The notes beneath the pieces are model-generated. The model was not told the DNA's origin and made no database searches. It saw only the letters and a program-made list of their open reading frames with translations. A stretch of 64,000 bases of DNA from Heterotrichella gracilis (Eukaryota > Sar > Xanthophyceae > Tribonematales > Xanthonemataceae), in assembly GCA_032358255.1 (NCBI GenBank), contig JAULBX010002889.1:79331-143330 (forward strand), written 5' to 3'. The position numbers and the translations under genes are program-made. This document shows, in pieces, positions 7,808 through 63,908 of this stretch (positions are counted from its first letter, which is position 1; every line of letters begins with the position of its first letter).

Positions 7808-10263
7808 TCACAGCGCCGATGTGACAGGTGGCAGCGGGTCAGCGCGCGTCTCCTTAAACAGGGTGCTGATGGCCTTGAAGGAGGGGTACTGCAGGGGGGG
7901 GGAAGGGGGGTGGTGGGGGAGGCAAGGGGTTGGGGGGTGGGGCCTTGAGGGAGGGGTACTTCGGACTGACGCGCGCTGACCCGCAGGGGAGGGGTGGTGG
8001 GCACTAATGGGGGAGCCAGAGGGGAGGGATGACCGCCAAACCTCATGGCAAGTCCCACACACGGATTCCAAACAATGCTCCTAACATCAAACCCCAATTG
8101 CCATGGTGACCCCATACTGGGTCCCCATATGATATCATCAGACGGGCAGTACTCCCACGCCCTCCGAAATACCATCTCAAACCCATAGCATTCTGCCGCA
8201 ACACCGGCAAACCCCACCCACCTGCCACTCCATCACATGGAACGAGCCAAACTTTTGCAACCCCCAAAACCTTTTAAAAATAACCCTACTGATTTTACTT
8301 ATAGCCCTACCTGCGTTGACCCCATCATCTGGAATGTCGCCATTTCACTGGTGGCCAAAAAGGCCCCGCTCTGTGCCAGGCGAGTCAGCGCCACCTGGCG
8401 GTCCCCCAGGCGCTGTGAGGACACCCCATCAACGATGATGTGGACCTCATACCCTTGCTCTGCAGGCAGGGGAGTTGGGATGGGGTGGGTTTCAAGGATT
8501 TTTGAGGAGGATTTGGAGGGTTTAATTGGGATTTGCGGGGTTTGGAAGCAAGAGTATGTGCGTGGCAAAACAGGGTACGGGTAACACATGCGGGCCAGTG
8601 GCACATGGCGCTTCCCTCAACCCAGGACACCCCGTCAACGATGATGGGGACCCCTTAATCATTCTCATGCTGATGGGGGGGTGGCAATTTTGCGATTTCG
8701 TGCGTGTGGGGTTTGTGGGTTTACATGCAAGGTGATGGGCTTGGTGGGCGCATGCGGGGAATGGTGTGCACAGGCCAGAAGGGGGATACAGCCTTGAACA
8801 GGCATTGGTGGGAGCAGACAAATGAAATGTGCCCATCAGAATACGTTAATGAGGGGGTTTGCAGGGCTTAACAACGACAGATAGAGTTTTCCTTCGTTTA
8901 CCGTACATGCCAAGTGCACATGGACTTCCACTGAAAGCGGGCAGGGAAAAGGTAAGGGTTTAGGGTTTGCGGCTTAGGGTTTAGGGTTTGGGGGCGCACC
9001 TATGAGATCCAGTGTGGTCTGGAGCACACACACGTGCGTCTCGATACCCACAATCAGAACCTGCGCCACGCACATGCGGCCATGCATCAGTGCCCACACA
9101 TCCTTAAGACAAGCTGTAAGCGCCCACACATATCCTGGAAAAAAAGTGCCTGTTCTCACTATTTTCCTCCTACCTTTTTCACATGTGCAAGCTTCCCTTG
9201 CATGTGGTCTGCCACCTCTGGCACTGCAGGGGGCACACACCAAGCTTTAGGGTTTTGGGGTTCACAGCATTTACCCTAATGGTATTCAGGGCGTGCCACG
9301 AATTCCATGTGCCAGATGGCGAAAGCTCATGACTTCGGATTTAGGATATTAGCAAGTGCTGATGACCAGGGTTACAAACCCCAATAGAGTTATCCAGCAG
9401 GGTGCCTAGGGTTTTGCTCACCCATCATGCTGAACACGGTCTTGGCCACCACCAATGCGCCAGGTGGCATACACTCATGACCAGAAATTGTGCTTCTTGC
9501 ACTAGAATTTCACTCACCCAGCGTGACTACCACAGTGTGCTAGGGTTGAAGTAGGGTTTTGCTCAGGGTTTGCTCACCCATCATGCTGAACACGGTCTTG
9601 GCCACCACGGGTGCGCCAGGTGGCAGGTGCTCACTGAGCTCAGCCACAGTGGGTCCTAGGGCTTTAGGGTACTGCTCCGTCACCACCACAGGGATGTCCA
9701 TCACGTGGGCAACGCGCACCTGCACAAGGGGAGAAGAAAAAATGGAATTCAGGTACAAGAGGAGGCAATGTTTTGTTTTTCAAATGCAAGTACCCAGGAC
9801 TTGAAAGCTTGCAGGCTCACAATTGGCACAAAGGTTTTTTATGCATACGGTCATTGCCAGGCGGCGCGCACAGTGCAAGGGTAAATGCCCGTCTTGCTGC
9901 GCCATTCAGTATCACCATTTACTTGAATAACCAATTCCACTGACTGCAAATTCACACAAGCAGCCCACTGAAGCGTGTGGGATTGGTCCCCACCTTTGCG
10001 GCATACCTAAGGTGATGGGCTTTAAGTTGCGCTCCTGGATGCGGCACGCTGTGCAAGGGTCACCATGTACCCAAATTAAATTGGATTCAAAACACACAAG
10101 GAATTGCAGGGGATCGGTCACAGCCACTCACCATTCGCTTTGCGGTGTCGATCACAGCCGGCATGCCTGCAATGACGGGCCTGAACCGCTCCTGTATGTC
10201 GCACACAAACAGGGCAGTTTCACTGGCAACGAGCTTGCCCAGGCGAGCCATGGCGCCACTCAT
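7808..10263 (-). CDS. Isochorismatase-family hydrolase (ISOC1/2-like)
   Basis: Five exons, all GT-AG and in phase: 10263-10132, 9719-9578, 9113-9000, 8459-8311 and 7888-7808, giving 205 residues, the usual length for the family. The cysteine-hydrolase core is complete: Asp in ALFVCDIQERF (residue about 22), Lys in VTEQYPKALG and Cys in GIETHVCV, the Asp-Lys-Cys triad position. These are followed by VHIIVDGVSS and the typical end YPSFKAISTLF. Animal ISOC1/ISOC2 proteins share this pattern; their natural substrate is unsettled, so I call only the family. Start: ATG at 10263; a second ATG at 10251 is possible. An acceptor-like ttgcag just upstream suggests a 5' UTR intron. Introns 1 and 2 and the 5' flank carry exon echoes. 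A TTTAGGG-rich patch lies at 8950-8990. Confidence 0.93.
9410..9470 (-). repeat. Exon echo (isochorismatase exon 2, 3' end)
   Basis: Near-identical direct copy of 9566-9625 (ctcacccatcatgctgaac onward), which holds the exon 2 donor. The words CTAGGGTTTTGC precede both copies. It ends abruptly at the ggtggca block. Confidence 0.8.
9999..10050 (-). repeat. Exon echo (isochorismatase exon 1)
   Basis: Diverged copy of 10157-10205. Translated on the minus strand it still reads IQERNLKPITLGMPQ beside the genuine IQERFRPVIAGMPAV. It lies inside intron 1. Confidence 0.7.
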
Positions 10264-10334
10264 GTGGACCTGCAAGGAGGCATGGCAACAATTAGGGTCT
10301 ATTTAAGGTACTTTGTGCTTGCCCTAGGGTTTGC

Positions 10335-10395
10335 GCTAGCACCAAGCTTGCACAGACGAGCCAACGGTCACTTATGTGGACCTACGAGGCAGCTT
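10335..10395 (-). repeat. Exon echo (isochorismatase start-codon region)
   Basis: Direct copy of 10227-10285, covering the start codon and the upstream acceptor (cttatgtggacctac beside ctcatgtggacctgc). In the copy the ATG positions are altered. CTAGGGTTTGCG adjoins it. Confidence 0.75.
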
Positions 10396-12257
10396 GACAC
10401 ACAAATTGGGGTGTGTTTAGGTATTAGATTTTGTGCATGACACCACAACAGGGTTTGGTAAGTGTGGATGTCGCAGGGTTTGTGGATGGTAACAGCATGC
10501 TTCAGGTGGAATAAAAGCTTGCTGGCCTGGGTGTCTTTAGGGTATTTACTGCACGCCGTAAGGGTCTTGCTTAGGGTATCCATTGCGTTGTTGGGGAGTG
10601 CTTTAAATCGGTGTTTGTTGTGGTACGTCGCTGCTGTGGCCAAGGCGACAGCGGGAGAGACACTATCAATGCCACAGCCAAGCCGTGTGTGTGCTGGTAT
10701 GGGAAAACATTTAGGGTTTGGGTGAGAGCAGGATGCGCTAACAGCTAAGCTGCTGAAGGTGTACACAAAAAAGGTTAGGAGGTTTTAATGGAATTTTTAC
10801 TGTCTCTGGAAAGGCATTGTGTCGTATGCGCGCCTAGCAAACCCTGCCAGTGCATGCGTGGGTGCGCGGCAAGGACCCTTTCGATCCGCGGCTTCGACTT
10901 CTCATTTGCAGATGTAATTTGTAATAGCCATGTCTAGGGTGGTCTGCAAGTGCAGGAGCGGGACAGCCTAGCGGGTCTATGTACGCATGCATGTGCAAGG
11001 GTGCATATGCATGCATATGTCGTTTGCGCGTCCATCCAAAGAACAAGGCATAGGCATAACCACAGATATAGAAACATGATCACCACCTTGCGGTTTCGAG
11101 GAGAACCAGAACAGCCTGGCCTTGAAAGGGCCACTCGCCTTCCAACCAACGCCTTGTAAGTTGGCAGTGTGCTTCCAACCATGCAGCAATGCAGAAGGCT
11201 GATTGCAGACCAGAAAGACACAAGCAGCAGGCAAAATCAGAAATTTGCTCCAAGCTTGGGTTTGCTTTGTCAGTTGCACGGCTGTCGTCGCTATCTAGCT
11301 AGCTAAATCAGTTGCAAATTAGCCTAGGGGGTAGTGGGGGCGCAGTGTACTAGGGTTGAGCCTAAACCCTAACCCTGGTCCATGCAATGCATAGGTCCGA
11401 CCTTGAAGAGGTTGCAAGCATAAACCCCTTGGTACTCAAAATGCACCCGACATATCGATAACATATGGAAACGCACAGCAGCGCAATACAAACCAGCTGC
11501 TGGTGTTACTGTTGGCATTGCGGTACAACCCCCGCGCAACCGTTGCAGACCATATGCAAGGCAGGCGCTGTGGATTATCGCAATGCAGAGGTCAAAGGAA
11601 AACACTGCCTATGCATCCCAATCCACTTCCTCTGCATGGCGTCTGCTTCGCAGTGCCCAGAGCTTATTGCTTCAGCGGGGTTGGTGTTTGGAAGAACGTT
11701 GTTGCACATGTAAACAATGCAGACGCAGCCACAAATTTTCCAACAATTTATTTGTGCCAATTTCCAATGACCACCCGGTGATTATTGAAAGGACAACATC
11801 AGCCCAGGAGGCAAGAGATCACACGCGGGGGCATCGTGATGTAGGATTGCCTTGCCAGGCATTTTGTGGCTGCCACGCTCAGCGATGAACTACCAACCAG
11901 TGTTTAGGGAAAATGCGCTATTGTGCGAGGTGTGCAGCAGATGGCTTGCTATCACAGTAACCCTCTAGCAGCAGAGCGCCAGCAGCAGAGCATGTGCAAG
12001 TGTGACCAGTCCGTTCACTGCTTGGCAATCCCTCTCAGTATATGCTAAAAACCAAGTCTGCTCCATGCCCACAAGCGAGACTTCATAGCAGCATATCTAC
12101 CACCCCATCATGTGTGCACTTCTCAAATGTTTGCAAACTTTGGGGGGGTAATGGCATGTGCAGGCATGTGCCCAGCCACACCTGGAAGACACTGCTAATT
12201 TACCTGCTTTGTATTGCAAAATTACGTGCATGCACACGCAATCTGGGAACAACCAAC
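10396..12257. other. Intergenic stretch without a clear gene
   Basis: I find no exon chain. Notable content: the palindromic gcatatgcatgcatatgt at 11003-11020, isolated TTTAGGG words near 10710 and 11360, and short open frames on both strands at 11090-11160 and 11580-11700 that lack decisive splice sites. Confidence 0.5.
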
Positions 12258-12510
12258 CTGGGTGGCGGCGGATTGCATGAGGTGTGCAGCTCTTGCAGCT
12301 GCTGTGGCCCTGGAAAGCACCTCGCTTATATCCTCCACGCAGGTGCCATCGTTCTCCGCGCGCTGCCCTTCACGAAATTTCACGTCATGCGTCACGCAAT
12401 CAGCGAGGTGGGTGCGCCCGCCGCCTCGCCGCCGTGCAGCGCACGACCGTGCTGCACCCCCAGGCGGCGGTGGATATCCGTGACAGCGGCGGTCTCCATT
12501 GCCTGCCGCG
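12258..12510 (-). CDS. Single probable exon of an unidentified minus-strand gene
   Basis: Between an AG at 12511 and a GTTGGT donor at 12257 the minus strand is open in a frame whose second half looks coding: HDVKFREGQRAENDGTC, then EVLSRATAAARAAHLMQS. Another minus frame in the first half also looks coding (METAAVTDIHRRLGVQHGR), so the true exon limits may differ. No family is recognised, and I found no partner exons. It would be divergent to the rhodanese gene. Confidence 0.3.
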
Positions 12511-14008: not shown

Positions 14009-14196
14009 GCTTCATCTCCTGGGTACCAACAGGGTGACATCAACCGCTTGAAACGTCTTGAAACGAACCTACTCTTCTCCTCCGACAACTGGACAGAATT
14101 GCTGCCACATGGCGTGCTTTTGGGACCTTAGTATTAGGGCTGGTCTTAGATGTGTTTGGAGTCCTGTCCCTTGCGTGAAAACAAGGCAATAAAGAG

Positions 14197-15395: not shown

Positions 15396-15429
15396 AAACT
15401 GAAATGTTTGATGCTCCCGCTGGTCCTGA

Positions 15430-15625: not shown

Positions 15626-18600
15626 GTATCCCACAGGTGCCCCCCCTTTGCCCCCCCTATGGTTGCCGCCACGTTCTGCCCCACCAGGGCCAGGGTTGAC
15701 AGCGCCAGCAGTATGGCCATGCTGAACACAATGAGGCTGCGGCGCCTGCAGGGTACGGAAATGGGTTACAGACAAACAAACAGAAAGGCATTTGTCTGTT
15801 TGTTTGTTTAAAAGGGGCCACTGGGTGAAAATAGGGGCGGCACAGTTTGGAAAGGGGAGGGGACGGCTGGTGCCTGCAGGATGGCTATGCCACCAAACGT
15901 CTAAAGGCTGCAGCGCCAGGGGAGCGCGGGATCAGCGACACTGTTTAGGGTTTTAAGGGTTTGGCAGCGCCAGTAGTGTGGCCATGCTGAACACAATAAG
16001 GCTGCGGCGCCTGCAGGTGGGAAGGTTGATTGGTGAAACGAGGGGCGACAATGGGGGACAAGGGGTGTGGAGGACTGGTGCGCGCATGCGCGGGGAGGGA
16101 ATGCAAGGCGCTGGCCAGCCATAAAACCTAGGCCAGCGCTAGGGTTGACAGCGCCAGCAATGTGGTCATGGTGAACACAATGAAGGCTGCGAGGCACAGG
16201 CAATGGTCACCAGTCACCCCCTGTACATACACAACCTTGCCACACCCTGCCCCAGCACTCACCCCATGTGCTGCAGGATCCTGTACATGGCCAGCTGCCC
16301 AGCCCACGTGACCAGCAGGCCAATCACAAACATGGCGGCGCCGTAGTCCCAGCTGCACCACACAAAGGGACGATAACCCTCAGTCAGGGTTTGCCCGGGG
16401 TGGGGGGGATTCAGAGCCCCACCAACATTGACGCAGGGGAAGAAGGGCATTGGTTGAAGTTGGCTGGGGTGGTGGGTTCACAGCACATTGAAAAGACCCT
16501 TCGCTAGGTTTGGGCGGTGTGGAGGGTTTCAAGACAGCACAGAAGACATTCAAAAGACCCTTAAGCGATCTATGACCCACCGCAGCTCTTGATGAGAATC
16601 ATCGCCAACGCCGACAAGCCCTAGCGTAGGGTTCTGTGGTTCAGCAAACCCTAGTTGCACACCTGATTTGCCCAAAGGATATGAACACAACGCTGGCCGA
16701 TGCTGCTGTGAAGAGGATCATTGTGGCGCTGGTGGCTGCAGACACCTCCGGCAACACGCCCATCTCCAGCATCAGCGGACCCTGCAACGGGGTTTGCGAT
16801 TGGGGTTTAGCATGAGGCAAATCGAGCGCGAGTCAGCATATAACACAGCCCACCACCTTGCAACCCCATATTTCCTCACCTTTCTACCCACCTTTGCCCA
16901 AATCCTGGACATTGCAGACTACAGCCCGGCATCAGAACACAGCAGGAGGTAGGTAGGCCATTAAACCCGCTTCACACCCGCCACCAATCATCACCCCCCC
17001 ACTCCCCCGCCACCGAGCACAGCAGGGGATAGGTCAGCGCCCACCCGCCCTCCGGCAACCCACCATCCCCCCACCCACCACCCACCCACCACACCTCCCC
17101 TCTCCCCCCTCTCCTCACCTTGACTATCCCCCCTCCAATCCCGAACATGCCTGCGCACAGCCCCGCCACCGAGCACATCAGTGGGTAGGTGAGGGTGGTG
17201 CGCGCTGACCAAGCCACATCCCCCTCGCACCCGCGCCACCCAAGGTACTGCTGGAGCAGCATGAGGCGAATCAGCCTGGGGCGCACAATAAAGTAATGAA
17301 GTGAAATGCTTTTTAAGGATCATGGAGAGTAGGCCAGTGGCTTTTAACTCTAGAGCCATAAACTAAAAAATGGCATGGGAATGAAAAGAGGAAAGGACAT
17401 TTTGAAGACTGTGATAAAAGTATTACCTAGTGCGCAACTATGACCGCCATTAATGGAAGCACAGACATGTTGCGGCCAGTAGGCGACAAACCCCAAACCC
17501 TAACAGTACACTTTAAACCCTAATGATTACCTTGTTCGCACCACCGCCATCATGACCGCCACCAGGGGGAGTATTGACAGGGTGGCGGCCCAGTAAGCAA
17601 CCGACCCACACGCCACCTGCTCCTTGGCCAAATCTGAAGCAACAACAGCTGCAAGGGGGAGGGGGGCAGGGGTACAGTTTGTTGGAGAATCACAACTTTG
17701 GAAACAATCATCATTGTACCAAATGGCAGCGGGAAAGATTGCTCGTCTGGCACACATTCGACCAGGGTTGAGGGTAAGGATGGTGGCCCGAAAAGCCATT
17801 ATTGCCAAGGTCTGAAGCAACACTGCTGCGGGGGGAAGAGTGAGGGTTTGAACCAAAGGTGCGAGCAGGGGTGCCATCCTCGGTCCTTGTGCACTTTTGG
17901 GGGACTGATATTTGTGACGGGGGTTAGGAGAATGCCCCTTTAGACATGGATGCTTACAACGTCAACTGTAGGTCATTGGACACTTGCTCCATTAGGGCAA
18001 GGGTTTAGATTTTAGGGTACTATTCCCCCACCTGCAAACAGTAAGATGAGTGCCCCCAGCTTCTCCCATGGCACCTGGCGCTGGTTGGATTCCACATACC
18101 TGCGCAACACAACCCGGACAAGGGATTAGGAGTTAGCGAGTACAGCACCAGGCACCCATTTGACAGCACAGGCTCCCTTGACCTTGGCATGATGTTGTCC
18201 TCACCGCCACCTCAACCATAATTAACGTCACCCTGAAACCCTACAACTGTACGCACGCGCCATCTCGCATTCCTTTGTGAAGCTGCGCTTGACAATCTCC
18301 AGCAGGGTGTGACTCAGCACCTCACGAGATGATGCCCATGGCCCCAGCCCTAACGCTACACCATATGGACATTAAACCTATCTACATCATGCGCCGCTCA
18401 CCCCAAACCCTAGAAGTGATCCCCTTCAAACCCCAAAACGCACCGCGCCATCTCGTATTCCGTTGTGAAGCTGCGCTTGACATCCTCGGGCAGGGTTGGC
18501 TTGAGCAGCTCCCGAAACGATGCCCATGGCCCCGAGGCGCGGCGTGGCGCTGACATCAGCACAGGCTCATGAGATCCTGCCACGTCAGCATGACCTGGCA

Positions 18601-21032: not shown

Positions 21033-22161
21033 ATGCCTAAGGTCAACCCTCCCGAGCTGAAGGAGTTCATGGACAAGAAGCTTAGCAGTGAGTTTCCCCG
21101 CGTTTCGTTCCCACCTCCAAACGTTTACCTGCTGCTCGTCTCCTTGCAATCATCCTCACGCAAAAAGCATACGAAAGCCTCAGCTTTGGCGTGGTTGGTC
21201 ATCAGAGCAAGCTGAGCATTGCATCCCTGGGAGTGCCATATGCATGCATCTGTGCCTGTTGTCCGTCTCCTGGCACCCATCGTACACATAAGCCTGGTGA
21301 ACAGCGGCCATCATGGCAACTGCAAGCTTGTGATGCGTGTTATCCTTGAAAAGTGCCATATGCATGCATCTGTCTCTGGCGCATCCACTGATGTCTCTCC
21401 GGCGGTTGCTGAGTGGCTGTCCTCACAGTGGCATGCTTGTATCAGGAGGTATGTATGTAGCTGGCAGTAAGCAGCGTCTGGTGAAGGAGGGAGGGCGTGG
21501 GCGTGTGGGCATTTTTTGGGTGGTTGCATCCTGGGCACTTTCACCGTCAAATGTACTGAACCCCACCGCGCCGTGCAGTTTCCCTGAACGCCAACCGGCA
21601 AGTGACTGGCGTGCTGCGTGGGTTCGACCAGTTCATGAACCTGGTGCTGGACAACACAGTGGACGAGAAGCTCAAGGTGGACATGGGCATGGTGGTACGT
21701 GCAACAAACCTAGTTTAGGGACATAGGCATGGTGGGGACGATGGGGACACGGGCACGGGGTGCATACAAACCCTGTGTGATGCGATGGAGAATGCTGGTG
21801 GCGTCCTGGTGGTATGTTTTAAGCCCATGTGCACTGCACCCGCTTCATGAACCTGATGTTGGACTACACAGTGGATGAGGAGCGCAAGTTGAGCATGGTG
21901 GTACGTACAACCAAACCCTGTGCATAGTGGGGCGCATAGTCTTGGGGTTCCAGGGATAGCAGGCAGTACATGATACCCTTGGTAGTCCAGTCCCTGTGCA
22001 CTGTGTCGTGCAAGCCTGGCAAACACCCCACAGGTTCATGGTATCTGCTTGGGCTATCAGAATCCAGCATGGCGTTGTGCTGTATTTAAACCGCTGCTTT
22101 GCTGGTGCAGGTGATCAGAGGAAACAGCATCGTAACGATAGAGGCTTTGGAGCGGATATAG
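21033..22161 (+). CDS. SNRPG: Small nuclear ribonucleoprotein G (SmG)
   Basis: Three exons: 21033-21087, 21579-21694 and 22111-22161, giving 73 residues, the normal SmG length. The Sm1 motif reads VTGVLRGFDQFMNLVLDN and Sm2 reads MGMVVIRGNSIVTIEAL. The N-terminus MPKVNPPELKEFMDKKLS is nearly the textbook SmG start. The protein is one of seven Sm subunits that form the ring on U1, U2, U4 and U5 snRNAs in the spliceosome. The ATG is the first in frame and fits the family. Intron 1 holds two copies of a ccatatgcatgcatctgt block, and intron 2 holds an exon echo. A TGTAA lies at 22406. Identification is secure. Confidence 0.95.
21236..21376 (+). repeat. Repeated block with ATATGCATGCAT in SmG intron 1
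   Basis: agtgccatatgcatgcatct occurs at about 21234 and again at about 21353, 119 bp apart, each followed by a gtg/gtc-rich segment. The core is a palindrome. Confidence 0.65.
21822..21905 (+). repeat. Exon echo (SmG exon 2, 3' half and donor)
   Basis: Direct copy of 21620-21703. It reads FMNLMLDYTVDEERKLSMV beside FMNLVLDNTVDEKLKVDMG and keeps the gtacgt donor. It has no acceptor of its own. Confidence 0.85.
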
Positions 22162-23410: not shown

Positions 23411-26400
23411 ATGGCGGAGCTTATCACCCCAAACATAGGGGAGATCAGGAACCAGTTCCAGGCTGCTGTGAGGCGCAATGACCTGGCGGCAGCGAGGAGG
23501 GCCCACGTGAAGCTGCTGGAAGCTGGCGCAAAACCCTCGTAAGGGACTCTGAACCCTGCATGAAGCCCTGTAGTATCCTGACGAGTAATCCCTAGCGTAC
23601 GCCCTATCCCATGGGCCTGCATGCATGTGCACAGCTTAATACACTACAATAACCTCCCATACCCTGGAGAAACCCTGCCGAAAGCCCGACCAACCCCAAC
23701 CCCAAAACCCTAAACCCTAAGCCGCCTGTTGCATATCCCTTGCCACAACTGCTTCCCACTCCTCAGGACGCAGCACTGCAACACCCTGATCAGCCTGCAT
23801 GCGCGCGCACGCGACTTTGCCGGGGCGTTTGAGGTCTCAGACCAGATGGATGCGCAGGGTGTGCCCAAGGACACATACACCTATGGGGTGCTCATTAACG
23901 CATGCGCAAAGGTGGGGAACAACCCTAAACCCTAAACCCTTAGCCATAAGCCGACACCAGGGAGTGGAGCGGTAGTTCAATAAAGAAAAAAATGAGGGTT
24001 TTCTTATGCTTTCGGCGGAGCCTTTCATGTGCCGAAACAGTTAGATGCACAGGGTGTGCCCAAGGACGCATACACCTATGGGGTGCTTATCAACGCGTGC
24101 GCAAGGGTGGGGAAGTCAAATTATTAACCCTAAAACCTGCACAGCATGGTGGCTCCTGTTCTATGCCATGTTTTTCAATGCATTGGTCCGATACATTGGC
24201 ATCAGTCCCACTGCCCTGCTTTGGGGACAAGCATGTGCTTGTTCTCAAAACCTTTACAAATAGTGCCGGATGCGGCGAGAAGAAGAAGTAGAAGAAGATG
24301 ACGCAACGTGTTTTAAATCTTCTTCCTCGCAGGCCGCGCACCCCCCCTACGACTGCCTGCCAGAGCACGCCCAGCGCGCCCAGGGGGTGTACCAGGAAAT
24401 GCTGGATAAAGGGGAGGAACCCACACGCATCGTGGTGCATGCGCTCATGGACTGCCAGGTGGGGTTGGCATGGGGGTTGAAAAGTTGGGAGGGAATCTTC
24501 CATAGTGGGTGGAAATGATGAGGGAGTACCTCAAGGGGTTGCCACAGCCAAGTGCATCGATGCATGCAGCAGGACCCACCTACCAGTAAGCTTAGCTCAG
24601 GGTTCAGGGATACATCATATTACGCCACCCGCCCCCTTTCCCCCCTTCGCAGGTCAAAGCGGGGATGGTGGAAGGAGCCTTTGTCACTCTCGCCCACATG
24701 GTATCCCAGGGCATGGCCTCCAACAACTGGAGCTTTAGCATCCTCGCCAACACACCTTGATCCTGTGTAAACCCACATAGGGCTCCAGGTTTTGGGTTCC
24801 AAGTGTAGCGTATATGGTCTACATGTTGCACAAAAATCCCCCCCAAGTGCAGGCTAAAGCGGGGATGGTGGAAGAAGCCTTCTCCACTCTCGCCCACATG
24901 GCGTCCCAGGGCATGGCTCCCAACAACTGGACTTTCAGCATCCTCATCAACGCCTGCAGCAGGGCCAAGCAGCCCTTCAGGGCGCAGGAGGTTGTTGATG
25001 TGCTGATGCCGCGAGCCAAGGTGGCCCCCGATGTGGTCACCTGGAACTCGCTGCTGGGTGCTTTTGCACGAGCGCGGCATGTTGACGGTGCGCGTAAAAC
25101 CTAACCAAAAATCGTAAACCCTAGAGATTTTGCTTGGCAAACCCCTAAACCCTGCAGCTCCTCAGGGGGGCAGGAGATGGTACACCCTTTGAACAACCCT
25201 GCGGGCCGGGCATGGCCATTACGACAGTCACACACTACATTCATACCCTGCTCCCCCTGCTTCCCCTGCGCATGCCTATGCCCCCCTGATACCCCTGCAT
25301 CATACCCCCCCCCCCCCCTCACTCCAGGCGCCTACCACACGTGGCAGCGCATGCAGCGCGCGGATGTCCTCCCCTCTGAGATCACCATCCGCCACCTGGC
25401 AGAGGCATTCTCAGCAAACCCCGAGATGGCAGCGGAGATAGCGCAAGAGGCAAAGGACATACGCCTGCTCAAGCTGCACCAGCAGGTAAGTTATAAACCC
25501 TAAACCCTATATCAAAGACCCTAAGCTCTTAAGTAGAAGGCGAAGGAATTTTGCTTGCTCAAGGTGCATCAGCAGGTAAACCCTAAGCTCTAAACGGTAA
25601 CTCATGAAACTCTATACCGGACACAGCAGGATGACCTTAATGACCCAGTAGACCTTCAGCAGTGAGACAAATACCTACTTTCCACTCCTCAGGCGCCCCT
25701 CGCCACCACCACCACAGCCGCAGACACCCCACACCCCTCCCGCGACAGGGCCCAGCAGTCCCGCACCCGCATGGCCAGGTACCGCCAGGTGGACATGGAC
25801 ACATATGACCCCCGCGCAGAGAACGATGCGCCCACCGATCCCCTGTTCTTGGACCTGCATGGCATGAGCCAATCGGCTGCGCGTGTGGCGGTGCTGCGGG
25901 TGAGTGTGCGCTTACTAGATCAATTGCAGGGTTGTGGCGGGTTGTGCCTTGGTTGCACCAGTAAATGTTCAGGGTTGTGCTTTTGGAACGCCAGGTGGCA
26001 GTAGTGGGTACAGGGTTGAGGAGCACAGGGAGGTGTAAGTGACACGTCATCATGTATTAACGTGCGTTGAAGTGAAAAATACCTTTTTTATTTATTGTGT
26101 ACAACGTATCATGTATATTGAAATTTCACTTTTCACCACATCCCTCCCCCTGTTTCTCTCAGCGCCTCAACTACCTTGTGCTCACCAAGGCCAAGCAGAA
26201 GCCACCCACTTTTGCCGAGCTGGCCTGGGGACAGCCGCCATCCTCACTTGCCTCGCCAGGTAACATTCCACCCCAAGAAGTGCTCCCATCCCCAGCTGCT
26301 TCGGCCACCCCAGGCACCCCCCCTGCCACCCCCCCACATGCTTCCGGTATCGCCAGCTGGCAGGAATATGGACCCCTGTTGAACCAGTCAGGTGGCGCCA

Positions 26401-27876: not shown

Positions 27877-28160
27877 ATGCATGCGAATTTCCTGGATATT
27901 TCCACCATTTTTCGTTAGTAACACTTTCACCAGTAATACTTTCACGGTTCACCCCGGGGTACGTACAGCTTAAGTGCAACTCCATGAAGGACTGCCATGT
28001 CTCAGGAGCACGATGCATGCATGGTAAAATATGTGCACCACGCTGTGTGATGAGCAATACGTGGAGTGGAACTGAACTTGGAAACAAACCGTTTTCTGAG
28101 AAAATGCCTGCGAATTTCCTGGGTATTCCCCCCATTTTTCGTTACTTTCACGTTTCACCC
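27877..28160. repeat. Direct repeat pair, about 65 bp
   Basis: gcgaatttcctgg, attttcgtta and actttcac blocks at 27890-27955 recur in the same order at 28112-28160. No gene is seen in 27264-28674. tgcatgcat palindromes lie at 28013 and 28188. Confidence 0.65.
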
Positions 28161-47143: not shown

Positions 47144-50100
47144 ATGCAGTATCCTGACTACTCCCAGCAGCAGAGTAACCAGGGAGGTAGGCCGTTGGTT
47201 CAGCCCGTTCAAGTGGCGCCAAAAGCCATGAACCAACAGATGTATGCTTTGAACGGGTACCAAAACCAAAACCAATACCAGTATCAGCAAGCACAGCAGC
47301 AACAGCAGCAGCACCAGTTCAACGACGGCCAGTATTACGGTGGCAACGGCTATCAGCAGCAGAACGGCGGGCAACACGATGCATACGCGCAGCCGAATAT
47401 GTACCCTCAACAGGCGGCCCCAATGTACCCTCAGGGACACGCGCAGCAAGCTCTAGCAGCCTCCTCGTATCCCCAACATTCCCAGTTCGGTCAAAATCCT
47501 ACGGATTTATATGGCTTCGCTCAGCAGGACCAGTTTGGCCAGGCCAATCAGGTGAACCATGGGTTCGATGGCTTCCAGCCCTCCTATGATCAGGCCCAGC
47601 AAGTGGGGTACGGGCAAGGGGTGCAGCCGCAGGGTTACGGCAACCAGTACCAACAGCCGCAACCGACCAACCTCCAACAGGGATACGGGCAACAACAGCA
47701 GCAGCAGCAGCCAAGCGATCTGCAGCCCCAAGGGTACGGTCAAGACCAGCAGTGGGGCCAGCAACAACCACCCCAACAGGTCCCACCACAAGAGCAGGCC
47801 TTCACTGATCCAGAGAGTGGTGGTGGTGGTGTGGGTGGGGTGTGGGCAAGGGAGGGCGCAGCAGAGGTGGGGCAGGAGTACCAACAACCCCCACCACAGC
47901 AGTCCTACCCTCAACCAGGGATGCAGGAGGGCCTTCCCCAGCAGGAAGTGCTCAACCAGCAGGAGGTGCAGCCCTACCCCCAAACAGGGGTGCCGAATGT
48001 GTTTCCACAGCCCGAGATGCCCCACCACCCCTTGCCTGAGATGCACCCACCACCCCACCAGCCAGGATATGGCGACCAGGAGCCCCACGCCACTGCCCCA
48101 GTGCCACACCCTTCGCAAAACCAGCAGGAGCAACAGGATGCACAAGCCTTGCACCCTCCAGAACCCCCCGGGGTTTCCACAGGGCCCCCACTGCCGTCCG
48201 ACGACACAGGGTTCCCTCCCCTCCCGCCGGACGACCAGCCGCCCCCCTTGCCCCAAGACCACCAACACCCACAGCCACACCCACAGCCACACCCAGCCCA
48301 GCAGTACATGGTGGGTATGGACCCCCCACCACCCACCTTTGGAAACCCCGAGGGCCAGTGGGGAGGGGTCGCATCCCTGCCCTCTATAGCAGGCCCAGGG
48401 CCCTACAGCCACCCCCACCAGCACCAGCATCCCCGATCCCCCCACCTCCATCACCAGCCCTTGCACCCCTCGGCCTGGCAAGGCTACCCCCCACTCGCCC
48501 ACCCCGCCCCCTACCCGCACCCCCAGTACCCACACCCCCACCCCTGGCCACACACACCCCACCAGTTCCAGCAGCCCAACGCGTTCACCCCCCACCGGCC
48601 ACCCCTCCACTGGCAACAGCAGCAACAACAGCAACAGCAACACTTCCAGCGGCCTGTCATCCCCACCCACCACCCGTCCATCCCCAGACCCACCCTCCGC
48701 CCACACGCCAGCCCCCAGCAAGCCGCACCGGTCCCTGCCCCTGCGCCTGAAAGGGTGCCCAGCCCCCAGCCTGCCACCATCATCGACGCCACGGAGCTCT
48801 TCCTTCCCCCAGGTAGGAAGATATGTTGTGAAAGGGGGGGAATGCGTATTGCATATTATTTATAGAAAGTTGATTATAATGGATATGAGTTCCAGCGATA
48901 CAGGCAGGGCAGCAGTCAGCCCTACATGCTTGCGCCACACAGTCCTGTCTATGCACTGCTTATAAGAAATTTTGCATTTGCATCGTATCATGCTGCATCA
49001 CACAACGCAAGGCTGTTTATAAGTCTGCTCGTTGGTCTACAATTCATGTACTCGTTCATTTGACAATCCCAGGGAGGGCCAAGCGGCCCAAGAAGATCGC
49101 CATCATCCTGCGGGGCCTGCCTGGGAGCGGGAAAAGCCACCTTGCCAAGAAGATCCGCGGGTTGGAGGTGGAGCATGGAGGGGATCCCCCCCGGATACAC
49201 GCCATCGACGACTACTTCATAACGGTGAGGGTTTAGGGTTTAGGAGCACGCACTCCACCCATGTGACTGCTAACATACGCCCACGTAGCCAGCAACAGAG
49301 TAACAGAATACAACATATTAGTGAGTATTATATTCAATACTTTGATGGAATGTCCGCCGCAGCCATGCAGCTTCCGGGTGGGGCGTTTATTATCCCGGGG
49401 AGGCATGCGCATGAAGTCTTTCCCTCCCTGTGTTACTGCACACTGCACTTGCCATGCCAGTGGTATTGTAATGTGCCCAGCTAGGTGACGTGACCTGGAA
49501 GCAATGGGCCCTTCCCAGCCCCTGCTGCTTGCCTGACCATGCATCACCCCCACCACCACCACCACCCCATGGCAGGAGGTTGAGAAGGAGGTGGCTGAGC
49601 GGCAAGCACATAATACAAAAAAACATCAACATTAACAAAACACCATGTATTTCTTGCAGGAGGTTGAGAAGGAGGTGGTTGAGGGTGAGGGGCCTAAGGC
49701 TCGCAAGCGGATGGTGCGGGAAATGGCGTATGTGTATGAGGAGGAGCTGGAAGGTAAGGGGTTAGAGGGTTTGAGGGTTTAGGTATAGGGTTGCAAGGTT
49801 TGGTGCGAGAGATGGCGTATGTGTACGAGGCGGAGCTGGAAGCTGAGGGGTTTAGGTTCAGGTGAGGGGTTATGGGAATGGAAGGGAAGGGAAGGTGGGT
49901 GCATGGATCAGGGTTTGGTTATGCAGCATGTGCAAAATGGCGTTAGTGTAACCATCAAATATGCCATCACTCCTCTGAATCCTTCTCCCATCTTTTCACA
50001 GCTTCCTACCAATCCAGCCTAGCGCGTGCCTTCAACCGCACTGTGGAGGAGGGGCGGTATGCTGTGGTGGTGGTGGACGCACCCAACATGAAGCTGGATG

Positions 50101-52630
50101 ATTTCAGGGACATGTGGTCGGCGGGGCAGGTGGGTGGGTGGGTGGGTGGTGGTGGTGGGGACCAGTGGGGTGTGCTTGGTGGTGGCGGTGCGTGGATGGG
50201 GAGGGGGAGGGGGGCTTCACTTGGTGGTAGAGGAGGTTGGGTGGTGGTGGTGGTGTGGGGAAGGGGGTGGTGGTGGGTGCACCAATGTGGAGCTGGATGA
50301 TTTCAGGGACATGTGGTGGGCGGGGCAGGTGGTTGTGGGAATTGGTGGTGTGGGGAGGAATGTGGGCATGCATCTCCACTTGCAGCTGAGGGCCGCTGCA
50401 TGGACCGTTGGGGTGTGAGGGGGAGGGGGATTGTAATACATTACAGTTCCGTAGTGGCGCAAAATGCATGCATTGATCCACGTGCTGTGCAAGTCATTGC
50501 AATACATAGAATGTGTCGGCGTTGCATCACCCACCACGCGTGTCCAATTGGCAGTTGCGATGCCGCCCGACACCCACTATGAGCTTGCCCTGCCACCCCC
50601 AGCTGCTGCTCCCTATTCCACACCCATCCCCTCCCCGCCTTCCTCCGCTGCTGCTCCCCCTCCACACACACACACCCTTTCAACATACCCCCCCCCCCCT
50701 TGTTTCCCCCCCTTGCAGCGCGCCGGGTACGAGGTGTATGTGCTGCAGCCGCCAGAGACCAATGTAGATGTGTGCCACCAGCGCTGCATCCACCACCGCC
50801 CGCTGTCCGCCCTGCGCTCTCTGGCCACCACCTGGCAGCCCCCCCCCTCCTTCTACACCCTGCTGGATGTGCGCCAGCTGTTGTCGGGAAAGCGCAGGCG
50901 CCCAGCCTCCGCCATCTCGGATGTGGATATGGAGTCGGAGGAGGCGGGGGTGAGGGTGGAGGGGGGGGATGATAGCGAGGAGGACGAGGCGGTGGCGGCA
51001 GCGGTGCGCGCGCAGACCAGCAAGTGAGTGCGGGGTGGTATGTGCAGTTGCATTTTGTGGTGGATCCTCCTCAAACGCCTGCGTGACCTGCCCTGAGTTT
51101 GCAGTTTCTTTACGGGGTAAATACGTGAATACCTGTCCTGTTGCTGCCGGAGCTCCTGTAATCAAGTGAATGGCACTAATCTCTCCTTCTTGATTTCCCG
51201 TTGGGCCCACAGCTGCCTTGTGCCACACAGCGCTGTCTCGGGGTACGGTATGCTGCCTAGGGTTGAGGGTGTAGGGTCCAAACTGCCCTACATGGGCCCA
51301 TTGGAAAGCACTCATCTGAAGGTCCACTTTCCAGTTTCCTGTGCTCACCACCCCTGCAACCCCAACAGGTGGTCCTCCCTGGATGATGATGAAGACGGGG
51401 AGGCGGAGGCGACCCCCAGTCGCGGGAAAAAGCGACGTGGGGATGGCTACGGGGGCCTGACCGCTGGCCTGGATGACATGCTGAGTGGGGCAGACCAGGT
51501 GGGTGATGGTCGGGTGGGAGCAGTGGGTCAGCTGGGGGTTGTGTGGTGATCGGGGTGATTAGGAGGAATTGTGTCTCCTGCTTTCTCTTATTCATGTCTC
51601 CTGCTTTCATTTCCTAACCCCAGGCCCCCTCTGCCCGCCCACATTCCTGCTGACATTATCATGTCAAATCTAACTTCACAATTTGAGACATGTATGTGTA
51701 CCTCCCCGCAGGGCCCCTCCTCTCGCACCCCTTCCAGCGCCTCCCTGGGCAAACCCCGCAAGCAGGTCCACTGGCCCGACCAAATGGACACGCCCAAGGG
51801 TGGGGGTTTCAGCATCGGGGGAGCGTCCACCCAGCAGGTGGGTGGTGTGCGATTATGGGTGGTGGGGTGGTGGGAGGGGGAGAGTAAGTAGTTTGTTTCA
51901 CCCCCTGACGCGCTTCCCCAATCTCCTAAATGCATCCATGGCATGTGCCTGCGCCTTCCTATTTCTGATACCCCCCGCAACACACACACACACACACATG
52001 AATTCTGGTAACTTGACACTCCCCTGCTGACGTGGTTTACCCCCCTTGCAGCTTGAGACTGTGTATGTGCTGACTGGGCTTGGCCCACCACCAGACGCTG
52101 GCCACGAGGACGCACACCTGTCGTTCGCAGACCAGGTAACCCTACAACCTTAAACCCTAGACCCTTGGCTCACCACCGGACGCTGGTGACAAGGACGCAC
52201 ACCTGTCAGTTGCAGACCAGGTGGGGTGCATCACCGCACAAATGTGAAAAATGTACTGTAATATTTGGTAAGTTTTTTTTTATTATGTGTTTTTTATTAT
52301 GTGCTTAATCTGAAAATAAGGGCCCGATACTGATGAGGCAGTGGGATCTGGATACGCCAATGGCACAGCAGTGGATGCCACTGTTCACCTAGCCACATAA
52401 CCATGCGCAGTGTGTGTTGAAGTTGCCCATGCGCGCCCATGCAGTAACCACGCCCTTTGCACAATCCATCCTTTCCCTGTGCAGGTTTGAAGACAGCATG
52501 ACATTCCACAACATGAATATAAACCCTAGATCCTGAACCCTAAACCCTTGCGCAGGTTCGGGCCGACAAGCAGGGCGAGCAGCAGCACTTCCGCAGCGTG
52601 CTGTTCTCACACAGGGCCGGGAACACGTGA
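47144..52630 (+). CDS. YLPM1-like P-loop nuclear protein
   Basis: Nine exons in phase: 47144-48812, 49073-49224, 49660-49753, 50002-50129, 50719-51023, 51369-51498, 51712-51837, 52052-52135 and 52556-52630, giving 920 residues. Exon 1 encodes about 555 residues of Gln/Tyr/Gly-rich then Pro/His-rich sequence, prion-like in look. A P-loop ATPase/kinase-like domain follows: IILRGLPGSGKSHLAKKI (Walker A), IHAIDDYF, a Tyr/Glu helix, ASYQSSLARAFNRTVEEG, YAVVVVDAPNMKLDDFRDMW, GYEVYVLQPPETNVDVCHQR, FYTLLDVRQLL. This order matches the C-terminal domain of animal YLPM1 and its plant relatives, nuclear proteins linked to RNA and telomerase control in animals. An acidic/basic tail has KQVHWPDQ, resembling the PP1-binding-type end of YLPM1. 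Introns 2, 3, 4 and 8 have echoes. Confidence 0.9.
48600..48645 (+). repeat. CAG/CAA microsatellite in YLPM1-like exon 1
   Basis: A polyglutamine tract encoded by mixed CAG and CAA codons. Similar shorter tracts lie at 47295-47315 and 47690-47712, all within the coding frame. Confidence 0.8.
49570..49607 (+). repeat. Exon echo (YLPM1-like exon 3, 5' end with acceptor)
   Basis: ggcaggaggttgagaaggag then gtggctgag copies 49655-49690 including the acceptor. Confidence 0.85.
49798..49862 (+). repeat. Exon echo (YLPM1-like exon 3, 3' end)
   Basis: gatggcgtatgtgtacgagg and cggagctggaag copy 49724-49757. TTTAGGT words surround it, and GTTTAGGTATAGGGTT separates exon from copy. Confidence 0.85.
50283..50332 (+). 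repeat. Exon echo (YLPM1-like exon 4, 3' end and donor)
   Basis: gagctggatg atttcaggga then catgtggtgggcggggcagg copies 50091-50131 with one or two changes and keeps the donor. Confidence 0.88.
52165..52225 (+). repeat. Exon echo (YLPM1-like exon 8, 3' end and donor)
   Basis: caccaccggacgctggtgac through agaccaggtgggg copies 52086-52140. CCTTAAACCCTAGACCC lies at the joint. Confidence 0.85.
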
Positions 52631-54589: not shown

Positions 54590-54725
54590 GGCCAGGTGAT
54601 GCCATCCAGGCGCTGCGCGGCCTGAGGCAGCCTGTGGGGGATCGTCCCTTAAGCCCCGCCATCATGATGCATGGCCCCAGGTATCACGCACCCCCTGGGC
54701 TGGGGTTTGCACCACACTTTCAGCG
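54590..54725 (-). repeat. Exon echo (helical-repeat gene, last exon 3' end)
   Basis: caggtgatgcc, gggctggggtttgcaccaca, cgcagccatacctccca copies 54890-55000 (caggtgatgcc, gggggcttgcaccacacgcg, cagccccgccatacctccca) in diverged form, downstream of the stop. Confidence 0.65.
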
Positions 54726-54866
54726 CAGCCATACCTCCCAGCAACATGACGTCCCCGGATGGTCTCTGCCAATTCCCTACCTCAAGCACCGTTGCATACG
54801 CTAAACCTGATTAAACTTGGATAAATTGTCATCTTAAGCTAGCTGCTAGCTTAAGGCTTATTTGGA

Positions 54867-57800
54867 TCAAATCATCGGCAGATGATCCCAGGTGATGCCT
54901 GTCGCCCCACCAGGCCCCGCTCCGCATGCCCCCAGGTATGCACGCACCACCTCCGGGGGCTTGCACCACACGCGCAGCCCCGCCATACCTCCCACCAGCG
55001 TGGCACCCTTGCCCTTGCCCCTACCCCCACCAGGTGGGGATGATCCCTGCACTTGCATCCCCACCATCTCATCCTCGTCCCAATCTTGATCATACCCCTC
55101 CCCCTGATCATGGCACCAATTGTACCCCTGATCATGGTTCATCTCCTGATCAGAGCAGCCATCCTCCTCATCCCACCGCCGCTCCATATGCCTACCGCCG
55201 CCCCTCACACGGCTGCCACCACCACCTTCGCCTGGTGGATGCAGGGCCTCCTCCCTTGCTGCTCCCCGCACACCCGCGACTCCCCCTTTCCCTCCCCTCC
55301 TCGCCGCTCCCTTTCCTCCCCTGCCAGCTTCGTGCAAATCCTCTCCCCCTTCCCCATCCTGCGCATCAAGGCCCAGGTAGCGCTGCAGCAGCTGCTGGGT
55401 GGTGCTGCAAATGGCTTTGCTGTGCTGGTCTTGGGCCCCAACCAGGTCAGAGCTGGGCTGCAAAATCACAACATTAAACAATAGAAACCGGCAGCACAAC
55501 ATCGTTGACAATCAAAGTCGAATTTGCGCAAATAGATGACACACAAGACATATCAGAATCGTTGCATGGGGGCACAAAGCAATTCAATCAGATGATGTGA
55601 AACGAAATGCATTTTGTTCTACATTACAATGGCCGCGGGGAAATGGAAATAGATATGCATACGTATACACAAGCAAACGCAATGTTAGATCTTTTATTCC
55701 ATGTGCACCCACCAGCGGGAACCCTGCTTCAAACAGCACCGCCCATTGATCAGGACCGGCATGGGTACAATGGCCAGCGCGGCCAGTGCTTGCGCGCACA
55801 CTTGCTTGTCCTTGTCACGCGCCTTGCACAACAATACCTGCAGGGGATATAGAGGATTTGCAGTGATGTTTCAATAATTGTACACCAAGCTACAGTAAAA
55901 TTTCCCTGTCTGTTATAATCTACTGTTGCAGGTTGACCGACCGAAGCCAAACACCGCATGCAGGGTTGCACATGAGGGTAGTACAATCCCGCCAGGTGCG
56001 CAGCCAGCTTGACTGCAGCATGCGCATTCTCACAAAACGGTCTTCAAAGATCAGTTGACAGCTTGAACACAGTTGTGAATTGTCATTAGAATTCCATTTT
56101 GAAGAGGTTCTTAATTTACACCCACCTCCACCAGCTGCCGCAGCTGAGGCGAGGACTCTGGCATGACCGCCAGGCGCATAGCCAGCTTCACAACAGCCCT
56201 CCGCATGCGCACAGAGGGGTCCTTGTACAGCGTGAACGACAGCATGTCAAAGGCACAGCACCTCCACAGCTTGGCCAGGGCGGCGCCTGCATGCCCTGTG
56301 GCCTCAATGGCGGCGTCTGCATGTTGGCCTGCAACCTTGTCCATGGCTGCAAACACGGAAATATTTGTGCATCAGGAAAATTATATGGAGTTTTATTGGA
56401 AGGTGTACGAGTGGGCAGCTGGGACAATGCACGTGCCAGCTGTAGCCATGAGACAATATGCTGCGCAATTGGCTGTCACCTTTGCATTTTTTTGCATATA
56501 TCGATGTGTGCATCCGAAAACCTGGTACTTTACGTAAGTACAACCACTTGTTGAATTGCTTGTCCTCAATGCTGTGGCATTTATGCATTCAATACCCTGT
56601 ACCTTGCACTGCCTCCAGCCGCACATCCAGGCAGCAGTTGCTCTGGGGCTGGAGTATCTCTGCGCATGCCATGAGCGTCAGCCTGGAGCCATCGACAGCA
56701 TACCTCCTCATCACGTCAAGGAGAGTGCGCACCCCTGCAAACATTGAAGATTTAAATTCATATGGATTTCTAAAACATCATCACCAACAACAAGTACACA
56801 TTTTCTCTTAGTTTGTGATCAACAAAGCAAAGAGAATGGGTGAAATGCCCTGGGATGTTAGCGGAGTCATCAGTTTCAAAGTCTCACTGGGTGAGTACCA
56901 TGGAACATACCACATAATGTATGCATGGTTGCCCCCCCCAGATTGACTCTGGAAAACTCCACCACACCCTGTATATACTGCAGCAACCCACCTGCCTTGT
57001 TGCTGCAGCATGGCAGATGTATCACCAACCCAACCACCGCTGGCCAAGTCTCAGGCTGCACCAACGCGCCACACATCGCAGCCTGTGCCGCCATCATGCC
57101 CGCTGAATCTGCCTCCACCAATGTCATAGCCACCAGCTCCTCCAGCACAGCTGCCAGGTGGGCCTCCCAGGGCCCAGGGCTGGTATCTCGCCAGGTGTAC
57201 AGCAGCTGCAAAGTTTGCAGTGCACACACAAAAGAACAAGATTCAGCGCTCAGCCAAGTCTCTCAGCCATATGATTGCAGATTAAAGAACTAAATCAATG
57301 ATCAATTTGTACTTACTGGCAAAACTTGAATTTGCAATCCCTGTGCTTCATTGGATCTTCACTCGAGTGGAGCCAGCAGCCAATCACTGAGTGCAAGCTT
57401 GGCACAGTGCATCCAAGATATGTGGGCATACGGTCACCTACCATGCATGCAATTGAATGAGCACCTTGAATGAAGTACTTTTACACACGAGGATGCGTCC
57501 AGTACATCCAGCGGGCCTACCTGAAATGCCCTCCTCAGCAGCTGTTGGAGAACATCAGATTGCAGATCGTGGGATGCAGCAGCAACTGCTGCGCACTCCT
57601 GCAATGCAAAATACAACAGGCACCAGTTAGATATCAAATATAGGCTGGCAAGGCATTCATAATGGCAAGGTACTACTAGTGACATCGGTCAGGGCAGGTT
57701 TACTCCATTGTAGAGTACAATTGTACAGATGAACAAGTTCCATGTTTTGACACAGCATTCTGAACTGACCTGAGCAGCTTGAATGATTGTATCAAACGCC

Positions 57801-63000: not shown

Positions 63001-63908
63001 GATGAGGATGAGGATGAGGGCGATGGCACCACCAAGACCATCACCAAGATCATCATCCAGCCAGACGGCCAGCCAGAGCCCATGCATGAGATGAACAAGT
63101 TCCTCCCCGCAAGCCTGCCGATAGATTGCTTCACGAGCTTCCAGAGCGTGAACATGCCACTGGTGTACACGCTCGGCATGGCGGACCTCATGCACGCGAT
63201 AGACGCGCCGCTCAGGTGCATGCTGAACCGCATCTTGCACAAGAGGGGCCTGCGCCGCCTGCAGCGAGCGCAGGAGGTGTTATGGGTAGCTGAGGACTAT
63301 GCTCACACAGAACGGTTTTGTATGACAAGCAGCAGTTGCGGGAGTGCGTCAAGGAGTTGGTGCACGAAGTCACTGGCAACGGGGAGGAGTGGGACGTGGA
63401 GGTGCTGCTCCGCCTACACCCTAAACCCTAACCCGTAAACCCTAAACCCTAACTCTTTGTGACAGTCACTGGAAACGTGGAGGCCTGGCACGTGGAGGTG
63501 CTGGTGCCTTGAATCTTGTTTATAAGGAACTGGGACTTTGAAGTTGTTTTGTGTATTTTCTTTTTTTACTGACAATCGGGATATTCAGTAGTTTTCCTTT
63601 TGTTCGTTTATTAACCATTGGGATGTGCAGGTGCTGCCTAAACCCTGAACCCTAAACCTTACACCCTACACCTCAACGTGCAGGTGCTGCTCAGCCAGTG
63701 GGCCAAGGCTAGCGCCGAGTGGCACCTGCGGTCTTGTCTTGACTTGTTTTACGCAACACCTGCCACCTTTGACGTGTGCAACCTGGTGGAGCTTGAGCAG
63801 CTGCAGCGGCTGGTCAAAGATGACAAGGACTTTGATCCCTACCGCGAGCTCACGATGTTCCTGGCCATCGCTGCTCACAAGGAAAGGCAGGGCGAGCTCA
63901 ACTGGTGA
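60082..63908 (+). CDS. Unrecognised acidic protein, 5' end unresolved
   Basis: Exons with good phase: up to 60240 (open from 59941, no ATG; Arg/Ala/Ser-rich, transit-peptide-like), 60408-60558, 61467-61610, 62097-62291, 62920-63278, 63311-63401 and 63684-63908 (stop TGA). A linking exon between 60558 (phase 1) and 61467 (phase 0) is missing from my model. The protein has a helical segment (QSLHERQAALTLQQHALDEE), a Pro/Ala linker, an Asp/Glu run (SDDEDEDEDEGDG) followed by KTITKIIIQPDGQPEP, then a compact C-terminal part (NMPLVYTLGMADLMHAID, VLYDKQQLRECVKELVHE, ASAEWHLRSCLDLFY, ELEQLQRLVKDDKDFDPY). I do not know the family. The introns are crowded with telomere-like minisatellites and exon echoes. 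Confidence 0.6.
60700..61040. repeat. 80-bp minisatellite with TTTAGGG core
   Basis: Four full units and a partial one with period 79-80 bp. Each unit is ctggtacacctcacatttgg, ccactg, two to four TTTAGGG-type words, then ccactgggatacatgctg. It lies in an intron. The units are nearly identical, so the array is recent. Confidence 0.9.
62590..62716 (+). repeat. Tandem duplication plus exon echo
   Basis: gtccttgcttctgtaattg and gtccttgcttctgtaactg are a pair of about 50-bp units. The second runs into gtgttttgcag followed by gctggcagggcaaaattctt, a copy of the acceptor and first codons of the exon at 62920 (cgcaggctgccagggcaaaa). Confidence 0.8.
62695..62919 (+). repeat. About 60-bp minisatellite running into a splice acceptor
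   Basis: Four units of the form cttggctacaraccctaaac, ccctaaacagtcctgatctc, cacgccaat. The final, decayed unit (gtccacgccactttcgcag) supplies the acceptor of the exon at 62920. Confidence 0.85.
63422..63455. repeat. Short CCCTAAA run
   Basis: Four or five CCCTAAA-type words in a row directly after the exon end at 63401, between the exon and its echo. Confidence 0.85.
63462..63640 (+). repeat. Exon echoes (unrecognised gene, exon before last)
   Basis: cagtcactggaaacgtggag then gcacgtggaggtgctgg at 63464-63505 copies 63367-63406. A shorter gatgtgcaggtgctgcc at 63622 resembles the acceptor and start of the last exon (63680). Confidence 0.7.

Follow-up and report, generated by a model that had tools for sequence, protein, structure and literature searches.

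Short local duplications in vertebrate genomes have been ascribed to break repair by Pace et al. 2009 (PMC2671141), who found filler at the junctions and counted 824 probable human cases genome-wide, with 4 partial exon/intron donors and 4 full-exon donors; the duplicated exons were without constraint, and the method leaves out copies within 50 bp. Break repair was also held responsible for mammalian interstitial telomere repeats by Nergadze et al. 2007 (PMC2246262), with a duplication of the flank at 6 of 130 loci in rodents and 4 of 25 in primates. Finally, Schimmel et al. 2021 (PMC8355091) described small tandem duplications, mostly under 100 bp, that arise through CST-Pol alpha fill-in at 3' overhangs and Ku-dependent joining, CST being a telomere-end complex. 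These are the systems closest to the one reported here, which lies in 64,000 nucleotides of the alga Heterotrichella gracilis (Xanthophyceae; contig JAULBX010002889.1 of assembly GCA_032358255.1, positions 79,331 to 143,330), called the window below. In this DNA, degraded copies of exon ends, or echoes, stand beside their exons as a real and dense phenomenon. It is a dense, telomere-linked form of known repair-mediated duplication and not a categorically new system; the initial annotation, which saw no named system that matched, was too strong on this point, as repair-mediated duplication and the insertion of telomere repeats at breaks have both been published (PMC2671141, PMC2246262).

We analysed the window together with 21 usable 10-kb samples from elsewhere in the assembly (68.5 Mb, 903 contigs), which makes 274 kb. 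As in the human cases (PMC2671141), the copies lie close together and measure up to a few hundred base pairs, with unrelated spacers in most pairs. Unlike them, they form 77 independent clusters in 274 kb, or one per ~3.6 kb, inverted cases number zero to three, and the spacer holds telomere repeat; since different methods were used, the densities are not strictly comparable. Similar to the interstitial telomeres (PMC2246262), the genome's own telomere motif is found at interior sites above chance. The two differ in flank duplication: here, direct duplications (score 36 or more) flank 56 of 214 telomere runs and 39 of 660 control sites, and inverted ones flank none of the 214. The pairs share direct orientation and short range with the fill-in duplications (PMC8355091), there being 109 direct and 3 inverted pairs at offsets below 500 bp, but they differ in that the copies are mostly separated by filler and the duplicated stretch, x, reaches about 200 bp.

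The evidence for local duplication comes from self-comparison. With blastn (word 7, E<=1e-3), the window gave 35 direct pairs at offsets below 500 bp and none at 500-3000 bp; inverted pairs numbered zero below 500 bp, apart from 3 self-palindromes, and 6 at 500-3000 bp, these being telomere-repeat runs. Twelve 40-bp block shuffles of the window yielded 0 direct and 0 inverted pairs. Over the 274 kb, 5 direct and 6 inverted pairs were found at 500-3000 bp. As the excess is direct and short-range, it reflects local duplication, neither chance nor dispersed repeats. The listed pairs have offsets of 58-449 bp and alignment lengths of 22-285; they are present in 15 of the 21 samples, and the six without any pair were retained in the denominators of all counts. 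Four of the 109 direct pairs sit in satellite arrays at 60704-62910 and were excluded, leaving sets of 105.

Genes were modelled with a hidden Markov model (HMM) self-trained on this very sequence without transcripts, which converged on the donor CAG/GTGNGT and the acceptor TGCAG/G and placed about 290 introns in the 274 kb; it takes some echoes for exons, and ahead of 12.9 kb of the window it offers no sound model. Eight of the 11 predicted window genes are touched by a pair, the exceptions being the models starting at 12392, 12952 and 36847. The initial annotation had proposed counting introns that match an exon of their own gene against a control. In this count, a match to the intron's own neighbouring exon end was present in 36 of the 248 predicted introns (within the window, 8 of 59), compared with 2 of 248 for the reverse complement of the same ends and 1 in 2,480 trials with the exon ends of other genes. 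The value of 36 is probably too low, because the gene finder absorbed several echoes as exons.

Taken as a whole, the interpretation first offered is partly supported, and its descriptive side fared well. The estimate of about 35 copies of 20-190 bp agrees with the 35 direct window pairs, and same-orientation copies do flank exons on either side (30 donor-side and 30 acceptor-side assignments among the 105 pairs, two pairs being counted under both). Of the four graded copies described at 32648-32895, two were recovered by blastn, and the two weaker ones, at 32789-32820 and 32859-32895, were each matched by 0 of 1,000 shuffles. The graded age of the copies and the lack of a dispersed transposon family were upheld too. 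Pairs also exist ahead of the range first described, which began at 9410, namely at 2704, 6133 and 8418.

Most pairs are not adjacent repeats. In 76 of the 105 pairs, at least about 40 bp of spacer lies between the copies, and A-x-filler-x-B is the form most often seen. Replication slippage or unequal exchange would instead have made plain tandem duplications whose register was later broken by indels and new rounds. The spacers under about 40 bp in 29 of the 105 pairs, the tandem arrays detected by Tandem Repeats Finder and the array at 32556-32895, which resembles repeated tandem rounds with the youngest copy adjoining the exon, are all in keeping with such an origin. However, among the 72 pairs with a spacer >=40 bp, wrong pairings of spacer and flank do as well as right ones: right pairings have mean scores of 11.5 and 10.7 and wrong pairings of 10.6 and 11.9, shuffled sequence scoring 8.4 and 8.0. 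Plain decayed tandem duplication is thus rejected for most spaced pairs, since the spacer lacks the match to the flank that a tandem unit requires. The telomere motif also lies inside the copies and not outside, and we regard slippage or unequal exchange as quite unlikely overall. The tandem duplication of junctions initially envisaged consequently does not describe most pairs, which are x-filler-x with a telomere-enriched spacer. A comparison of pyrimidine tracts in 11 pairs, bearing on which acceptor context is the ancestral one, gave a C+T fraction of 0.66 upstream of the echo and 0.61 upstream of the working acceptor, against a background of 0.52.

Introns can also be gained by duplication of an AGGT stretch or through introner elements, and both processes change intron content locally while leaving the protein unchanged, as do the echoes. 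In-register donor and acceptor copies were found in 0 of 277 introns at a score of 28 or more and in 1 of 277 at a score of 24, against 1 of 1,382 in the control; many of the 48 high-scoring own rows in this comparison are short introns with overlapping 120-bp windows, so that only the in-register column counts. When four of the 76 spacers were searched in the genome, three were unique and the fourth shared only a 33-44 bp minisatellite tail with seven places; no dispersed, introner-like family was found among these four. Intron gain was rejected, as neither in-register copies, new introns nor a dispersed intron family were seen.

The filler is linked to telomeres. We take TTTAGGG as the telomere repeat because perfect arrays stand at the first bases of several contigs; counting overlaps and contig ends, TTTAGGGTTTAGGG has 5,629 matches in the assembly and the reversed pattern 5. 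The density of telomere 8-mers, in bp per kb, is 20.7 in predicted introns, 2.8 in exons and 9.1 elsewhere. Within 40 bp of the copies, the motif lies on the inside in 36 of the 76 spaced pairs and on the outside in 15; by independent cluster, 14 have it inside only and 3 outside only (p=0.013). The window (13 versus 6 of 24) and the other samples (23 versus 9 of 52) point in the same direction. Edge by edge, the motif was counted at 28 and 23 inner edges and at 7 and 10 outer edges of the 76 pairs, the latter being the level of random intron. It stands beside the working donor in 10 of 20 donor-type pairs, compared with 12.2% of random intron stretches. Clean examples were found in two samples: at L017:3049-3147, a 29-bp x lies on either side of 41 bp of CCCTAAA-type repeat, and in L027 a 20-bp x surrounds a telomere run. 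Telomerase extending both broken ends was considered and rejected; under it, copy 1 should be followed by TTTAGGG and copy 2 preceded by CCCTAAA, whereas the orientations within 40 bp are even (15 G-type and 16 C-type pairs after copy 1, 19 and 16 before copy 2, of 105). Across the 274 kb, intronic telomere runs read on the sense strand are more often CCCTAAA (51 introns) than TTTAGGG (24 introns, with 11 mixed; p=0.0024), which could come from selection against G runs in transcripts or from a transcription-linked process.

What the data show is the anatomy of most pairs, their direct orientation and short range, the inner placement of the telomere motif and the neutral decay of the copies; the staggered breaks, fill-in and capture set out next are inferred. 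We favour, with moderate confidence and from a single genome, break repair with end fill-in and filler capture, the products being kept where splicing tolerates them. Two nicks, one in each strand and some 20-200 bp from each other, would leave complementary overhangs; with both overhangs filled in, the intervening stretch x would be present on either side. The ends would then capture filler, often a piece of telomere repeat from the same genome, and end joining would give A-x-filler-x-B. Where x spans a splice site, one copy would stay the working exon end and the other would turn into intron, so that the intron grows. The outcome would be a neutral scar of a double-strand break, in which the copy discarded by splicing decays. 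Matches to Ku domains on two contigs of the assembly count in favour of this account, but show only that such genes occur in the assembly.

In synthesis-dependent strand annealing, by comparison, a broken intron end would copy a nearby exon end, so that only x is inserted and the spacer is original intron. This route was proposed for the 824 human proximal duplications (PMC2671141), and it accounts for spaced copies and for junction filler. It would lead one to expect filler at the outer copy edges too, yet the motif is no commoner there than in random intron (7 and 10 of 76). The region after the working donor would also be original intron, yet the telomere motif is present there in 10 of the 20 donor-type pairs. 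Strand annealing therefore appears unlikely to us.

Several observations weigh against fill-in with filler capture. The placement of the telomere motif was discovered and tested on the same single sample, 40 of the 76 spaced pairs have no telomere motif near their inner edges, and only 4 of 20 acceptor-type pairs carry the motif beside the working acceptor. As the orientation is even at both inner edges, the telomere part must come from capture or templated copying. Simple tandem duplication is possible for the 29 of 105 pairs whose spacer is short or absent. The right pairing of spacer and flank beats the wrong one by >8 in 11 of 72 pairs on one side (6 the opposite way) and in 5 of 72 on the other (10 the opposite way), and to judge from these alignments a few pairs may be decayed tandem units. 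Lastly, the copy ends cluster near splice sites, which the fill-in model does not predict.

This last point bears on whether exon ends are targeted. The raw class counts, approximate with these gene models, show 60 junction pairs where 23.7 were expected, 20 exon-internal (14.5 expected), 7 intron-only (12.6), 15 intergenic-only (48.3) and 3 exon-exon (5.9). The junction excess is mostly ascertainment, because a pair with one frozen member diverges half as fast and is visible for longer. When ages were matched (88% or more versus 77% or more), 18 exon-touching and 17 non-coding pairs remained, a ratio of 1.06 compared with 0.69 expected from space. The focus on exon ends is thus mostly an ascertainment effect, with purifying selection keeping the parent recognisable, and the junction-directed process suggested by the initial annotation finds its remaining lead in the short intron parts of the copies. 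Among pairs with at least 86% identity, 14 of 22 had an intron part of 8 bp or less, where a decay simulation gave 24%; the corresponding figures were 6 of 21 (8% simulated) at 80-86% and 1 of 17 (9% simulated) at 66-80%. This means either that breaks tend to fall close to splice sites or that the simulation has a flaw. A process that duplicates exon ends in particular, for example by breakage or by RNA-templated copying linked to transcription or splicing, would fit the short intron parts in the two younger groups, the raw excess of 60 over 23.7 and the sense-strand CCCTAAA lean (51 versus 24). However, the age-matched excess is small, the 66-80% group shows no enrichment of short intron parts, non-coding pairs also exist, and the donor bases present in the copies mean that the template was unspliced. 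We hold such targeting to be very unlikely.

The decay of the echoes was read from 56 pairs, in which exon and echo differ at 85 of 939 sites (9.1%) for codon position 1, at 73 of 942 (7.7%) for position 2 and at 157 of 939 (16.7%) for position 3. The mismatch ratio is 0.50, with a bootstrap interval of 0.41-0.60. A ratio of one half is that of one constrained and one neutral sequence, as two working exons would give much less, and the copies are therefore dead: echoes evolve neutrally, without coding constraint on the copy. The copies might also be working alternative exons, as the gene finder gives several of them an open frame, the DHQS and PPR models being examples. That reading was rejected on this ratio, which is the value of a neutral copy, and is extremely improbable. 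False exons made from echoes may be found in automatic annotation of this genome. In the models starting at 23390, 30014, 43726 and 47228, echoes with splice-like ends and a frame were built in as repeated peptides.

The exon parts of 50 pairs are identical at 95% or more in 7 cases, at 90-95% in 13, at 85-90% in 19, at 80-85% in 9 and at 75-80% in 2. The process had been called continuing; identities reaching 98% agree with this, whereas the young copies, fewer than the middle-aged ones, do not. The process is old and was active into the recent past, perhaps slowing. Its contribution to intron lengthening, also suggested at the outset, is borne out: the detectable events inserted about 9.2 kb in predicted genes, compared with 75.5 kb of predicted intron. 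The median intron length is 370 bp with an own-exon match and 259 bp without, longer introns also offering more room for a match.

The presence of low-GC, contaminant-like contigs in the assembly raises the question of an artefact. Of the 24 samples of 10 kb that were fetched, 3 were excluded, two with a GC content of 36-37% and one all N; the former, L002 and L020, come from two contigs in which the telomere motif is almost absent and are probably contaminant or organellar, whereas the window has a GC fraction of about 0.55. The copies nevertheless diverge by several to 30%, show a decay that follows codon position and are spread over 15 of 21 separate samples, which leaves an assembly artefact with virtually no chance of explaining them.

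How introns lengthen where transposons are few is an open question, and here pieces of own exons remain recognisable in the introns that hold them. Each cluster carries its own clock, since codon positions 1 and 2 of the parent exon hardly change, and a single genome could thus serve to date both break-repair history and intron growth. Through the telomere repeat that the scars enclose, the process is tied to telomere biology, and gene finders are led astray by the copies, some of which they take for additional exons. A possible, if doubtful, extension is that telomere-linked repair acts at an exceptional rate in transcribed DNA, with a tendency to break near splice sites; it would then be a main intron-lengthening engine in place of transposons, and older intron may be largely scars decayed past recognition. 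Among the matches listed in open PMC full text, judged by title and the start of the abstract, none concerned exon-end copies or telomere repeats through algal introns, which does not establish absence from print. The loci in the window are listed in the table.

Table. Duplicated exon ends and other direct pairs in the window (window coordinates; identity between copies).
Locus	Strand	Exon part and copies	Identity	Remarks
2704..2925	.	2704-2743 / 2886-2925		spacer with AAACCCTA-type repeats
6133..6260	.	6133-6171 / 6222-6260		spacer with AAACCCTA-type repeats
9410..9625	-	9410-9469 / 9566-9625	93%	GGTGAGC donor-like site on minus strand; 96-bp spacer, TAGGGTT beside second copy; exon inferred from sequence, no gene model
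10223..10423	.	10223-10310 / 10336-10423	76%	25-bp spacer with CTAGGGTTT; no gene model
TauE/SafE-like gene, 15684..16191	-	last modelled exon and acceptor 15693-15752; two echoes upstream in intron, 15958-16017 and 16133-16191	92%, 88%	Pfam TauE
18251..18533	-	exon end and donor 18438-18533; echo 18251-18345	83%	92-bp spacer with CCCTA-type motifs
21632..21917	+	21632-21710 / 21844-21917	80%	GGTACGT donor-like end in both; no gene model
PPR gene, 23843..24138	+	exon end and donor 23843-23940; echo 24038-24138	83%	CCCTAAA in both
PPR gene, 24649..24951	+	echo 24649-24751, upstream of acceptor and exon start 24849-24951	85%	spacer unique in genome search
PPR gene, 25448..25595	+	exon end and donor 25448-25505; echo 25538-25595	76%	with CCCTAAAC
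27877..28159	.	27877-27931 / 28104-28159	86%	non-coding example, outside gene models
DUF1995 gene, 30563..30845	+	echo 30563-30634; acceptor and exon start 30773-30845	86%	spacer 30635-30772, ACCCACACCCAG minisatellite; last ~40 bp match seven places on other contigs
DUF1995 gene, 32556..32895	+	exon end and donor (to 32609); echoes 32649-32704, 32742-32785, 32789-32820, 32859-32895		telomere runs 32617-32646, 32710-32724
DHQS gene, 43499..44072	+	three mutually similar copies, offsets about 200 and 376 bp		telomere runs 43678-43695, 44051-44065
DHQS gene, 45270..45713	+	exon end and donor 45270-45351; echoes 45484-45565 and about 45591-45713	84% (first echo)	one echo rendered as repeated peptide by gene finder
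49572..49852	+	49572-49599 / 49656-49683; 49697-49763 / 49787-49852	96%; 84%	acceptor side; donor side
50066..50359	+	50066-50161 / 50266-50359	83%	
52079..52222	+	exon end and donor 52079-52137; echo 52164-52222	86%	26-bp spacer is CCCTA-type repeat
54669..54997	-	54669-54743 / 54924-54997	82%	second copy inside last modelled exon of minus-strand gene
63368..63672	+	exon end and donor 63368-63448; echoes 63464-63503, 63619-63672	88%, 78%	telomere runs 63418-63452, 63637-63658

Among seven window proteins scanned, five passed the Pfam cut-off (Rhodanese, TauE, PPR, DUF1995 and DHQS); of the remaining two, one had sub-cut-off Pfam hits only and one had none. Rfam and tRNA scans across the window found nothing. 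The window also holds self-palindromes at 5377-5731 (imperfect, 355 bp, 68%) and 58359-58429 (short, 71 bp, 94%). Satellite-like arrays lie at 60704-61041 and 62702-62910, with 80-bp and about 55-bp units, and include telomere-repeat runs. At 26391-26675, a predicted coding exon contains a tandem repeat with CTAGGGTTTGG units, a telomere-like motif that is translated as LGFGG.

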